Positions 10,918 through 19,784 of a stretch of 45,145 nucleotides of DNA are shown in pieces. The stretch is from Deltaproteobacteria bacterium (GTDB lineage Bacteria; Desulfobacterota; Syntrophobacteria; BM002). The number at the start of each line of letters is the position of its first letter. Position 1 is the first letter of the stretch. The stretch lies in assembly GCA_020353155.1 (NCBI GenBank), contig CP070689.1, positions 1,661,086 to 1,706,230 of the forward strand. Direction: 5' to 3'. Position numbers and translations under genes: made by a program. Below the pieces are notes generated by a model that saw only the letters and a program-made list of their open reading frames with translations, made no database searches and was not told where the DNA came from.

Positions 10918-11277
10918 TTGCCAAAGCAAAGCAGCGATCTTTGTGATTGTCGCCTCATCCACCGGCAGGTGGTGGAAGAGGCCATAGCTTCATCTCTCCA
11001 CTCGGATGAAATAGGGACCTTGGCCCAAATATTCAAGGCCTTAGCTGATGAAACCAGGTTGAAAATCCTTTGGGCTTTGGAAAAGCGAGAGATGTGTGTG
11101 TGTGATTTGGCTGCCATGCTTGGCCTGACCGAATCGGCTGTTAGCCATCAACTCCGTCTGCTAAGGAATCTACAACTTGTAACCAATCGGCGGGATGGGG
11201 TGGTGCTCTATTATCGCCTTGCCGACAACCACGTGTCCCAATTGATCAGAATTACTCTTGAGCACCTAAGGGATTGA
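10918..11277 (+). CDS. ArsR/SmtB-family metal-sensing repressor, CadC-like
   Basis: This 119-aa winged-helix repressor has the ArsR fold (FKALADETRLKIL near 39, ESAVSHQLRLLRNLQLV near 72-88). Both classical metal sites appear: N-terminal Cys9 and Cys11 with Cys60 and Cys62 (MCVCDL), as in CadC for soft metals, and the C-terminal Asp103, His105, His116, Asp119 set matching the SmtB/CadC alpha-5 zinc site. It should sense Cd, Pb or Zn-like metals and derepress its own operon. The start is TTG with a purine-rich GAAGGGGG 7 nt upstream. The permease begins 7 bp after its stop, so the two form one operon. Confidence 0.88.
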   Translation: MPKQSSDLCDCRLIHRQVVEEAIASSLHSDEIGTLAQIFKALADETRLKILWALEKREMCVCDLAAMLGLTESAVSHQLRLLRNLQLVTNRRDGVVLYYRLADNHVSQLIRITLEHLRD

Positions 11278-11284
11278 TAAATTA

Positions 11285-12394
11285 ATGAACGTTATTGGCC
11301 AAATACTGCAAGCTAGTTGGGAACTATTCCTGGAGGCAGCTCCCTATCTTTTCCTAGGCATACTGGTGGCTGGACTCATGTATCTTTTCCTTGCCCCTGA
11401 AACCATAGCCAGGCATCTATATAAAGGAAGGATACGCTCAGTGTTCAAGGCAGCTCTCCTTGGCATTCCCCTGCCTCTTTGCTCTTGTGGGGTCTTACCA
11501 GCGGCTGCAAGCTTGAGAAAACAGGGGGCCAACAAGGGGGCTACCGCTGCCTTCCTCATCTCTACTCCTGAATCTGGAGTTGACTCAATCGCTATAACCT
11601 ACGCCCTTTTAGATCCACTCATGACCCTTATCCGACCCCTTGCCGCTTTTATTACCGCTTTTGCCGCCGGTATTATGGAGAATGTCTTTGACTGGGAGGA
11701 CAGGGAAAAAGGGTTGCTCCCAGTGGTCGATCCTGGTTGCCGGGTTGATGGCTGTTGCGACGGACAAGATTGTCCCCCTGAGGAACATAACAAACACCAC
11801 ACTCTAGTTGAGAAATTGTGGAAAGCTATCAGCTATGGCTTCTTCGATCTCTACCGGGAGCTATCCGGCTGGATTTTCGCCGGCTTTTTGGTGGCCGGAG
11901 TAATTACTCTCTGGCTACCTCAGGATCTTACCAGTAGGTATCTTGGCGGCGGTTTCATCACCATGCTTTTTATGCTTGCCGCCGGTATCCCGACCTATAT
12001 CTGCGCTACCGCCTCTACCCCGGTAGCGGCCGCCTTGATTTTGAAAGGGATGAGCCCCGGCGCAGCCCTAGTGTTCCTCCTTGCGGGACCAGCCACCAAT
12101 ATCGCCTCCCTTACAGTATTGACTCGAGTGCTGGGTAGGCGCGGGGTAGTTATTTACTTGGGGTCCATCGCCACCTTTGCAGTGCTTTTCGGATTGGCTA
12201 CTGATTGGCTCTATGGTTTTCTGGGGATTTCCCTGCAAACCAAACTGGCCACTGCCACCAATGAAATGTTGCCCGGCTGGCTTCACCTGGGCCTAGCCTT
12301 ATTGTTGGCAATCCTTATGCTTGCCTTTCTTATCCGTGGCGTCGTTTCGTTTCTCAAAGGCAAAATTAATCCAACCCCGCAGCAACAGAGCTAG
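11285..12394 (+). CDS. SO_0444-family Cu/Zn efflux permease (ArsP/DUF318-like)
   Basis: The 369-aa integral membrane protein has two permease halves of about four helices each, separated by a hydrophilic loop. The motif GIPLPLCSCGVLPAAASLRK (near 57-76) and STPESGVD (near 93) are diagnostic of this family, and the second half repeats the pattern as GIPTYICATASTPVAAALI (near 238). The central loop (about 150-178) is rich in Cys and His (GCRVDGCCDGQDC, then EEHNKHH) and probably binds metal. With the upstream CadC-like sensor, the role is heavy-metal export at the inner membrane. The exact metal is inferred from the family, not from the sequence. Confidence 0.88.
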   Translation: MNVIGQILQASWELFLEAAPYLFLGILVAGLMYLFLAPETIARHLYKGRIRSVFKAALLGIPLPLCSCGVLPAAASLRKQGANKGATAAFLISTPESGVDSIAITYALLDPLMTLIRPLAAFITAFAAGIMENVFDWEDREKGLLPVVDPGCRVDGCCDGQDCPPEEHNKHHTLVEKLWKAISYGFFDLYRELSGWIFAGFLVAGVITLWLPQDLTSRYLGGGFITMLFMLAAGIPTYICATASTPVAAALILKGMSPGAALVFLLAGPATNIASLTVLTRVLGRRGVVIYLGSIATFAVLFGLATDWLYGFLGISLQTKLATATNEMLPGWLHLGLALLLAILMLAFLIRGVVSFLKGKINPTPQQQS

Positions 12395-15919: not shown

Positions 15920-15946
15920 TTGACAAAAACACGGGACTTTTATAAT
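15920..15946 (+). promoter_or_regulatory. Promoter of the phe leader and aroF-pheA
   Basis: TTGACA at 15920-15925 and TATAAT at 15941-15946 are both consensus, with a slightly short 15-bp spacer. Transcription would begin near 15953, placing the leader peptide about 27 nt downstream. Confidence 0.75.
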
Positions 15947-15979
15947 GTTACGGCTCTGTTTTGTTAAGAGGTATAAGAT

Positions 15980-16069
15980 ATGCGCAGGGAAGCAACACAT
16001 TCCTTAGACTTTAGAGCTGGACGGTTCTTTTTCTTTTGCTTTTTTAGAATCGTCCGCCCGGCTTCCTAG
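15980..16069 (+). CDS. Phenylalanine-rich leader peptide (pheL-type)
   Basis: This 29-codon reading frame starts at ATG 15980, with AAGAGG 10 nt upstream, and stops at TAG 16067-16069. Seven of its 29 residues are Phe, six of them within seven codons (FFFFCFF at positions 16-22, bases 16025-16045). It precedes nested RNA hairpins and a terminator, then the aroF-pheA gene. E. coli pheL is organised the same way. Ribosome progress over the Phe codons would report charged tRNA-Phe. The peptide itself need have no function. Confidence 0.9.
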   Translation: MRREATHSLDFRAGRFFFFCFFRIVRPAS

Positions 16070-16108
16070 CGTTATGCCCCGGGCGGACCGAGAGCGGTCG
16101 CCTCGGGG
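16052..16108 (+). promoter_or_regulatory. Attenuator switching hairpins (segments 1, 2 and 3)
   Basis: Segment 1, GTCCGCCCGG (16052-16061), pairs perfectly with CCGGGCGGAC (16079-16088) in segment 2. Segment 2 (16077-16090) can instead pair with segment 3, CGGTCGCCTCGGGG (16095-16108), around an AGAG loop. Segment 3 in turn holds CCTCGGGG, complementary to CCCCGAGG (16141-16148), the left arm of the terminator. The model I infer: stalling early on Phe codons leaves 1:2 free to form, freeing segment 3 to pair with the terminator arm (read-through). A ribosome at the stop codon covers segment 1, 2:3 forms, and the terminator folds. Confidence 0.8.
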
Positions 16109-16137
16109 GTAATATTTATCCTACAGTTTTTGAGCAT

Positions 16138-16173
16138 AAGCCCCGAGGTGGCTAACCTCGGGGCTTTTCTTTT
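16138..16173 (+). terminator. Attenuator terminator before aroF-pheA
   Basis: AAGCCCCGAGGT (16138-16149) and ACCTCGGGGCTT (16155-16166) form a perfect 12-bp stem with a 5-nt loop, followed by a pyrimidine tract TTCTTTTT. It lies 30 nt before the aroF-pheA start and downstream of the Phe leader peptide, so it is regulatory rather than an end-of-operon signal. Confidence 0.9.
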
Positions 16174-16202
16174 TCCATTCACAATTTTAAGGAGTATTCA
16201 CA

Positions 16203-18080
16203 ATGATTCTCGTGTTGAAACAGGGCATAGGTGAGGAAGAGATAGAGCAGATCAGGAGCATTCTTCGGCAAGAGGGTTATCTTATTCGCGAGATGAGTAC
16301 CGGAGATGAAACCGTTATCGGCGTGGTGGGCAAGGTAAGCCGCGATCTGCGATTTTTCGAACAACTCCCGGGGGTAGCCAAGGTAGTTCCAGTGTCTCGC
16401 CCCTATAAGCTTGTTAGCCGAGAGATGCATCCTCAAGACACGGTAGTGCAGATTGGCGATGTCCAGTTAGGCGGTCCAAGGATTGTGGTGATTGCCGGCC
16501 CTTGTGCCGTAGAAAGCCGCGAACAAGCCATGACCATCGCCAAAAAGGTCAAGAGTGCCGGTGCTGTTTTGTTTCGCGGCGGTGCCTTTAAGCCACGGAC
16601 TTCACCCTACTCTTTCCAGGGACTGGGCGAGGAAGGTTTAAGAATTCTCGCCCAGGTCAGAGAAGAAACAGGACTGCGGGTCGCAACCGAGATGACCTCT
16701 CCTAATCAGGCGGACATCATGATGAAGTACGTGGACGTCATTCAGATCGGCGCCCGCAATATGCAGAACTTTGAGTTGCTTCGCAGCGCCGGCCGTCTAG
16801 GCAAACCCGTGTTGCTAAAAAGGGGCCTCTCAGCCACCATGGAAGAGTGGCTGATGTCGGCAGAATACATACTCTCAGAGGGTAATGAGCAAGTTATCCT
16901 TTGCGAACGCGGCATTCGTACCTTCGAGCGCTACACTCGCAATACCCTAGATCTGTCTGCCATTCCCATAATTAAAAATCTCACTCACCTGCCGGTGGTC
17001 ATCGATCCCAGCCATGCTACAGGCATCAGGGAGAAGGTCAGTCCCATGGCTCGCGCGGCTATCGCCGCTGGTGCTGACGGTCTTATGATCGAAGTACATC
17101 ACGATCCAAGCAATGCCCTTTCGGACGGACCTCAGAGTCTTTACCCTGAACAGTTTGAACAGTTAATGCGAGATCTTTACGTGATTGCTCCTGTAGTGGG
17201 AAAACAGCTCGATTTTGCCTACTTGGAGAAAGCCGCTCCGGCTTCTTCTCTGCCTTCTGTGAAAACCGGCGGTCGGAGGCGTGCTGTCTTTGCTGGTGAA
17301 ATGCGTGCTTTCGCCCACAAGGCTGCAAGCCAATTTTTTGGTAGCGACATTAATATAGATCCGGTTCCCTCCTTCCGAGACGTTTTTCGTGAAGTAAAAG
17401 AAGGAAATTGTGATTTTGGTGTAGTTCCCTTGGAAAATTCGCTAACAGGCAGTATTCATGAGAACTACGATCATCTATTGGAATATGACGTTAGAATAGT
17501 TGGTGAGATAACCCTCCGCATTGTCCACGCCCTCATCGGTCATCCAGGGACTGAACTTAATGCGATTAAACGAGTTATTTCTCATCCTCAAGCCCTCGAA
17601 CAGTGTCGCGATTTCTTGGAGCGTCAGCCCGAGTGGGAACTTGTTGCAGCCAGGGATACGGCTACGGCTGTGCGTCGCATCAAAGAAGGAGGCGAGTCAG
17701 GGGAAGTTGCCATTGCAGCAAGAGAAGCGGCAGATCTTTACGGTCTGAGTGTGCTCAAGGAAGGCATTGAGACCAACCCCAGAAACTATACCCGTTTTGC
17801 TGTCATAGCAGCAAGTGCGGTAAACAATGGCCCGAGGAAGAAATCCTCCCTAGTCTATTCCACCAGTAATAAGCCCGGCGCTTTATTTGATACCCTACAG
17901 ATATTTGCTGAAAACGGAATCAACCTGGTCAAGTTGGAATCCAGGCCTATTCACGGCAAACCTTGGGAGTACATGTTTTACGTTGATCTCGAGGCCGACG
18001 TGGAATCCAACGAACTGGCAGAGGTAATGAGGCAGCTGTCTGAGAAGACAGAGTATCTCAGAGTATTGGGAAGCTACTAA
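16203..18080 (+). CDS. Fused DAHP synthase (type I-beta) and prephenate dehydratase with ACT domain
   Basis: The 625-aa protein joins two distant steps of aromatic synthesis. Residues 1-70 form a ferredoxin-like regulatory domain, and 85-335 are DAHP synthase (IAGPCAVES near 97-105, [17 protein letters not shown] at 124-140, IDPSHATG near 270). A linker leads to prephenate dehydratase (about 362-535) with the NYTRF motif near 527, then an ACT domain (about 545-625) with the LESRP phenylalanine-binding motif. No chorismate mutase domain is visible. The dehydratase start reads [10 protein letters not shown] rather than the usual GxxGxxSH pattern. AAGGAG precedes ATG 16203. Control by the phenylalanine leader, plus probable allosteric Phe binding to ACT, fits the fusion. 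Confidence 0.92.
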
Positions 18081-18833: not shown

Positions 18834-19784
18834 ATGAAAGAGTCTTTTTTAAAAACTCATCTATTGCCGCAGATGGCTTTCTTTACGATGGGAATGCCTC
18901 GCAATGGCTCAATATCAGTAGACATAACTTCACGTTGCAACTTAAGATGTAAGCATTGTTATTATTTTAATTTCAACAATGAAGAGGTAACAACGGAGCT
19001 CTCTGATATAGAATGGCAAGAAAAATTAATAAAATTAAAGAAAAGATCTCTTTTCTCTCACAGCTGTACATTTGTAGGCGGTGAGCCATTGATAAGAAAG
19101 GAGTTGGTTAGGAAGTTAACGAGATATTTTAGATATAATTTAGTGGTAACCAATGGATCAATAACGCTACCGTATTGGAAAGACGTTTTCTTTCATGTTT
19201 CTGTTGATGGTACAGAAGAAGTTCATGATGAAATTAGGAACCAGAAGGGACTTTACCAAAAGATAAAACAGAATATTTGCGAAAACGCCCGAGATATGCA
19301 TATTACAATTGTTACGTGTCTCACAAATGAAAACAAACACTGTATTGAGGAATTAGTTCGGGATTGGCTCGATAAAACTCCCACTCAAGGCTTTATTTTT
19401 GATTTCTATACTCCAAGTATTAATGATGACAAAGATAGATTTGTGATTCCTCATGCTGAGCGCGATAAGATAATTGATCAAATGGTGGAATTAAGAAAAA
19501 AATATGGAAATTTCATAACAATACCTGCCGATGTATATGATTTAATGAGATCAGGGAATTATAAGAAAGTGGTGAAAAACTGTATTTTTCGCAGGAGATG
19601 TGGTGCCTTTGATTCTATGGGGAACAAGAAACCTAAGTGTGTTCTTGGAGGGAGCGCCAATTGTGACCTTTGTGGTTGTATTGTTCCATATTACCTACAT
19701 TTTCGCTTAAATAAGAAATTCATAGTCAGCGAAGTAAAGAAAAGTTTAAAAACGCTTTTGCAGGGGAAGTACATTTATCTCTAA
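18834..19784 (+). CDS. Radical SAM protein with C-terminal Cys cluster, AT-rich
   Basis: The 316-aa protein has the radical SAM motif CNLRCKHC (near 37-44), a GGEP block (near 82-85) and an SVDGTEEVHD block (near 123), so it should bind a [4Fe-4S] cluster and cleave S-adenosylmethionine. The C-terminal part holds further cysteines (NCIFRRRC near 249, KCVLGG, then NCDLCGC near 280), suggesting an auxiliary SPASM-like cluster. The substrate is unknown. The gene is clearly richer in A and T, with many AAA and ATA/ATT codons, than its neighbours. It sits next to a MITE-like element, suggesting horizontal acquisition. No precursor peptide gene was recognised nearby. The ribosome binding site is weak. 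Confidence 0.82.
   Translation: MKESFLKTHLLPQMAFFTMGMPRNGSISVDITSRCNLRCKHCYYFNFNNEEVTTELSDIEWQEKLIKLKKRSLFSHSCTFVGGEPLIRKELVRKLTRYFRYNLVVTNGSITLPYWKDVFFHVSVDGTEEVHDEIRNQKGLYQKIKQNICENARDMHITIVTCLTNENKHCIEELVRDWLDKTPTQGFIFDFYTPSINDDKDRFVIPHAERDKIIDQMVELRKKYGNFITIPADVYDLMRSGNYKKVVKNCIFRRRCGAFDSMGNKKPKCVLGGSANCDLCGCIVPYYLHFRLNKKFIVSEVKKSLKTLLQGKYIYL

Follow-up and report, generated by a model that had tools for sequence, protein, structure and literature searches.

The prephenate dehydratase gene pheA of gammaproteobacteria is controlled by a Phe-rich leader (pheL), and comparative surveys of proteobacterial attenuators exist. In Clostridia, aromatic amino-acid genes are controlled via tRNA charging by T-box leaders, in which the RNA senses the tRNA directly, without a translating ribosome. 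Attenuation of pheA is among the attenuators listed by others (PMC1183508), and in his leaders the successive hairpins AB, CD and EF, the last of which carries the U-tract, are set against an alternative pairing that includes DE (PMC10989985). His leaders also carry an extra hairpin, located after the pause hairpin and ahead of the terminator, to which a block of read-through after ribosome release is ascribed (PMC1183508).

We have analysed a stretch of 45,145 nucleotides from a Deltaproteobacteria bacterium (the window), in which a Phe-rich leader ORF and a terminator indeed lie ahead of aroF-pheA; this observation is confirmed. We consider it highly probable, at roughly 90%, that the region constitutes a ribosome-mediated, Phe-sensing transcription attenuator of aroF-pheA, with a six-arm layout as in enterobacterial his leaders. 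The features are the following:

15920..15948, + strand: predicted promoter, -35 TTGACA at 15920-15925, 17-nt spacer, -10 TAATGT at 15943-15948, assigned from conservation in the genus and family.
15966..15971, + strand: Shine-Dalgarno AAGAGG of the leader ORF, from sequence, 8 nt 5' of the ATG.
15980..16069, + strand: leader peptide ORF MRREATHSLDFRAGRFFFFCFFRIVRPAS, ATG at 15980, TAG at 16067-16069; Phe-rich frame in 40/40 curated leaders.
16019..16028, + strand: arm A GGACGGTTCT, pairing with B at 16046-16055; A:B hairpin of -12.4 kcal/mol, swap test 0/2000.
16046..16061, + strand: arm B AGAATCGTCCGCCCGG, of which 16052-16061 pairs with C; B:C cells 86.7% paired.
16077..16090, + strand: arm C, pairing through 16079-16088 with B, or through 16077-16090 with D.
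16095..16108, + strand: arm D, pairing with C, or through 16097-16108 (GTCGCCTCGGGG) with E.
16138..16152, + strand: arm E, 16138-16149 being the left arm of the terminator and 16141-16152 pairing with D.
16155..16174, + strand: arm F ACCTCGGGGCTT at 16155-16166 and U-tract TTTTCTTTTT at 16165-16174, an intrinsic terminator with E.
16203..18080, + strand: aroF-pheA, the gene putatively controlled; Pfam PF18152, PF00793, PF00800 and PF01842, and NCBIfam.

According to Pfam and NCBIfam, the product of aroF-pheA is a type I DAHP synthase (ferredoxin-like and catalytic domains) fused to prephenate dehydratase and an ACT domain. The fused gene is present in 34 of the 56 genomes examined from the class of the window's genome, and in only 18 of 395 in a phylum-wide sample. 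A solitary radical SAM protein (PF04055, Fer4_12; window 18834-19784) is encoded 750 nt 3' of it and, elsewhere in the window (10918-12394), an ArsR-type regulator precedes a permease that, from reading of the translations, resembles ArsP-like efflux permeases.

The leader ORF, a translatable, Phe-codon-rich short frame 5' of a Phe-biosynthesis gene, has 29 codons, with Phe at codons 16-19, 21 and 22 (16025-16036 and 16040-16045); this agrees with the 29-codon leader containing six Phe in seven codons that an earlier note on this DNA had placed here. In the 3.2-Mb genome, both strands included, there are only four occurrences of the pattern TTYTTYTTYTTYNNNTTYTTY. In a scan of the whole window for short ORFs in which one residue is over-represented and which have a terminator-like hairpin 3' of them, the leader ORF ranks top by far, with a hairpin of -25 kcal/mol, the others ranging from -12 to -16 kcal/mol. 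Upstream of it, TTGACA is found in the window and in nine loci from its genus or family, accompanied by a TA---T hexamer at the 17-nt spacing; TATAAT at 15941-15946 was dropped as the -10 element, being only 15 nt from TTGACA and not conserved. Transcription would therefore start 5' of the leader ORF, and a start 3' of 16173, which the earlier note had named as an argument against attenuation, is not borne out.

The 283-nt region folds with -94.9 kcal/mol, compared with -75.9±4.9 kcal/mol for shuffled sequences (z=-3.9). As isolated hairpins, A:B, B:C, C:D, D:E and E:F have energies of -12.4, -19.9, -23.3, -24.1 and -24.0 kcal/mol, respectively, and in the window the duplexes of the four main pairings (B:C, C:D, D:E and E:F) amount to -23.9, -26.0, -25.8 and -25.2 kcal/mol: all lie within about 2 kcal/mol, which indicates that the two states are nearly balanced. 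The window's D:E is a 12-pair helix, three bases of which (16150-16152) enter the terminator loop, a stretch that is unconstrained by E:F. An intrinsic terminator lies between leader ORF and gene, since 16138-16166 and its T-tract were matched independently in a pattern scan, as the strongest terminator in the neighbourhood. The alternative hairpins and terminator of the "five-segment" layout put forward earlier thus stand, and its count does not, as there are six arms (A-F) in five pairings. The his-like logic of that proposal, in which 1:2 frees segment 3 to block the left arm of the terminator, is borne out and is better worded as A:B, C:D and E:F versus B:C and D:E.

We have curated a set of 40 Desulfobacterota leaders with enough upstream sequence, drawn from genomes of the class and phylum and from contigs of a Desulfotignum, a Desulfobacteraceae and a deltaproteobacterial MAG; four fused loci whose upstream sequence is too short (L007, L013, L026 and L114) are excluded from the counts. 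Arms A-F are common to all 40 leaders, each of which has a Phe-rich open frame that ends over arm B or just past it, and in 30 of them the stop codon begins exactly 5 nt past arm B. The Phe run and the residues encoded by B are kept among the peptides, the N-terminal half is variable, and a few peptides are additionally rich in Tyr or Trp. Three aroF-pheA fusions (L034, and L117 and L118 of family f19) show no recognisable Phe leader within the 280-300 nt that were examined, which counts against the main reading. A comparable leader was sought and not found at the fused genes of Spirochaetota and Clostridia and at standalone DAHP synthases of other phyla; four AT-rich clostridial matches carry an ORF of a different kind and are not such leaders. 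Extra intergenic sequence separates terminator and aroF-pheA in L119, L033 and L031, the last having about 200 nt 3' of an intact leader (the last 270 nt before the gene).

Using an arm-swap test, in which arms are exchanged between leaders in 2000 permutations and relatedness is only partly removed, the permutations as good as the actual arms number 0 for A:B, B:C, C:D and E:F and 2 for D:E, as compared with 46 to 1937 for six control pairings without a proposed role. RNAalifold alone yields only C:D and E:F and does not recover A:B, so that for the alternative pairings each structure was specified by name and its pairs were counted, the arms being aligned free of gaps and 500 shuffles serving as reference. 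In this analysis 96.4% of the E:F cells are paired, with six pairs altered on both sides, and the outer seven pairs of C:D are 98% paired and near-invariant. For B:C, five pairs are changed on both sides (16 cells), and it exceeds all 500 shuffles both in cells paired and in covariation score. In D:E, 83% of the cells are paired, a value that no shuffle reaches, and its covariation is modest and not clearly beyond the shuffles (37/500 for the score, 307/500 for both-side changes), which counts against the main reading: its complementarity could in part be due to two GC-rich hairpins being alike. The his-type layout is therefore found, with the covariation of D:E being its modest component. A covariance model (R2) of 20 leaders, none of them from the genus or the family of the window, recovers the window at 16020-16170 with 60.1 bits (E 4.8e-12). 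Model R1 gives low-scoring matches (E about 0.007-0.08) in the genome of the window and in its close relatives; on reading, none shows a convincing Phe leader ahead of a gene, and most are ordinary terminators.

We have also investigated the effect of ribosome position, by placing the ribosome with each codon in turn in its A site and folding the RNA 3' of it as far as the end of E. In minimum-energy folding, at least one Phe stall yields B:C and D:E in 34 of the 40 leaders, and the remaining six (L006, L012, L016, L018, L019 and L033) evidence no switch, a result that counts against the main reading. Considering all leaders by codon relative to the stop, the antiterminating fold is obtained in 80% at -16 to -10, in 53% at -8, in 5% at -7 and no longer from -6 onwards, and with the ribosome at the stop codon the fold is OFF: in folding, a stall at Phe codons yields the antiterminator, and one at the stop codon does not. 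Of the residues at codons -13 to -8, 57-93% are Phe, and since the turn-on interval ends near -8/-7, the Phe run is at its edge. In about half of the leaders the ON fold is likewise obtained when the ribosome stalls before reaching the Phe run, which again counts against the main reading and makes A:B only a putative discriminating element.

From the computed parts, their conservation and the thermodynamics of switching, the mechanism would be as follows. RNA polymerase would pause at A:B (predicted at -12.4 kcal/mol). When Phe-tRNA is plentiful, the ribosome would reach the stop codon and cover arm B, so that C:D forms, E is left free for F, and transcription would stop at about 16170, assuming that E:F terminates in vivo. 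When Phe-tRNA is scarce, a ribosome stalled in the Phe run would mask arm A, B:C would form and free D, and D would pair with E, such that the terminator is not formed and transcription enters aroF-pheA. Without translation, A:B, C:D and E:F would form and the gene would be off. The Phe-responsive, ribosome-mediated attenuation of aroF-pheA that had been proposed is thus supported by the 40 leaders and the stall folding, as a prediction from sequence. Folding and alignment of the leaders, the check foreseen in the earlier note, have yielded a conserved Phe run and covarying E:F and B:C, and homologous leaders lacking both the Phe-rich frame and the alternative pairings, the other finding it had held to be adverse, were not encountered, as the homologous leaders keep both.

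Other explanations have been weighed against this one. A trp-like, four-arm attenuator (A:B, B:C, C:D), followed by an unrelated constitutive terminator with E:F acting as a partial block, would be compatible with 12 of the 40 leaders, in which a U-tract follows C:D and might make it the terminator. However, the window's leader and 27 others lack a U-tract after C:D, which alone would regulate nothing, and E:F, the best-covarying element, would hold the gene off absent D:E. In addition, complementarity of D:E exceeds that expected from composition in 38 of 40 leaders upon shuffling of arm E, compared with 36 of 40 for C:F, D:E being the stronger of the two (Wilcoxon p=2e-4) and entering the terminator loop in the window, so that we regard this explanation as improbable. 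The high complementarity of C:F is expected if both hairpins share an origin, and it is, together with the GC-rich and similar arms (C resembling E, and D resembling F), what would speak for a plain intergenic terminator whose hairpins are complementary by chance or hairpin duplication, without any attenuation. To this last we attach hardly any weight, the lowest of all: B:C covaries, though hairpin duplication cannot produce its complementarity, a promoter conserved in the genus lies 5' of the ORF, and the Phe run and stop position are kept in 40 leaders.

It is likewise very unlikely, and only slightly less so than the plain terminator, that the Phe-rich ORF is incidental and that the sensor is another one, such as T-box tRNA binding, a riboswitch or an RNA-binding protein. 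Inspection of clostridial loci with similar genes does suggest T-box-like 3' ends upstream of some of them; yet Rfam 15, which includes the Phe leader and T-box families, gives no family match at gathering score, and a permissive search of the region up to E 10 gives no match to the Phe leader family and no credible one (the weak matches to miRNA, U12 and others, E 0.016-10, are regarded as chance). Also, the Phe-rich frame, stop position and B are conserved whereas the N-terminal half of the peptide is variable. No description of such a Phe attenuator in Desulfobacterota was found in the open-access literature, to which the search was confined, subscription papers being outside its scope; with the Rfam result, this is consistent with the earlier remark that the system is little described.

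The C:D U-tract, absent in the window's genus, gives the 12 leaders that have it two terminators in tandem, and here B:C would open the first terminator and free D to open the second, one antiterminator undoing both. Such versions suggest a route for the origin or decay of the six-arm his-type switch, from a four-arm attenuator plus a second terminator, the first with or without its U-tract. The phylum-wide model search also matches leaders of other sequence and the same plan with Phe/Tyr-rich peptides, e.g. MSFFYFFYFYFNRGHP, which, read by eye, precede class I aminotransferases (often two in tandem), operons of phenylacetate-CoA ligase, ACT proteins and a Liv-type ABC transporter, and other Liv-type operons.

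Among individual loci, Phe/Tyr-rich leaders (e.g. MVDKSIFLGFFYFYFICPHPGIRLL) with tandem terminators (GCCATGGGTGC...CCATGGC-T-run, then a second one) are observed 5' of PRK06836-type aminotransferases, often paired, in family f59 (L164, L166, L168, L170, L172, L175 and L178), L165, L171 and L173. At L169/L180, L176/L187 and L205 (536-1837), such leaders (MSGIFFFFFYFTRSAREMAT; MTQPGIFCSFSFEAFRFFFFSRRVRPALS) and hairpins are found 5' of paaK; genes for ACT-domain proteins come next and, in L180 and L187, also those of a Liv-type ABC transporter. Liv-type substrate-binding protein operons (L177/L181, L190, L191, L207, L208 and L209), including those of three genomes of the window's class, are preceded by Phe-rich leaders that have one or two terminators.

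The paaK loci suggest, from their sequence context, a biosynthetic use of phenylacetate. If Phe/Tyr scarcity does switch on these operons, they would be anabolic, leading from arylacetates to Phe/Tyr, and together with the aminotransferase operons they raise the question of direction, salvage of arylacetates into Phe/Tyr versus degradation. We propose tentatively, at somewhat below even odds, that the window's leader is one member of a family of attenuators for aromatic amino acids that extends over Desulfobacterota and is not yet catalogued. In this family, formation of the antiterminator helix B:C would set D free as a relay arm, by which a second hairpin is taken apart, the two hairpins often being tandem terminators; the family would serve shikimate-pathway entry, aminotransferase pairs and phenylacetate-CoA-ligase/Liv-type transporter operons. 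The leader model is usable for annotating similar leaders, and Desulfobacterota, on whose amino-acid regulation the searchable literature has little, gain a conserved regulatory RNA of understandable mechanism.

In comparison with known systems, the T-box leaders of Clostridia have the same class of targets, aromatic amino-acid genes, whereas the window's leader has no T-box match and is predicted to be ribosome-based. The gammaproteobacterial pheL shares attenuation of prephenate dehydratase by a Phe-rich leader; the aroF-pheA leader differs in its extra hairpin, in two pairings beyond 1:2, 2:3 and 3:4, and in having no match to the Phe leader family. The his attenuator of Escherichia coli and Salmonella has the same plan, AB, CD and EF versus DE, with the extra hairpin. 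Unlike it, the aroF-pheA leader would sense Phe and not His, would control a DAHP-synthase/prephenate-dehydratase fusion, has no Rfam match that links the two and, in many relatives, has a CD that is itself a predicted terminator. By the features examined, the aroF-pheA leader is a predicted leader-peptide attenuator of his-type layout with Phe as its putative signal: a known mechanism in an uncatalogued, conserved form, whose plan, as read from the sequences, recurs with varying sequence across Desulfobacterota.
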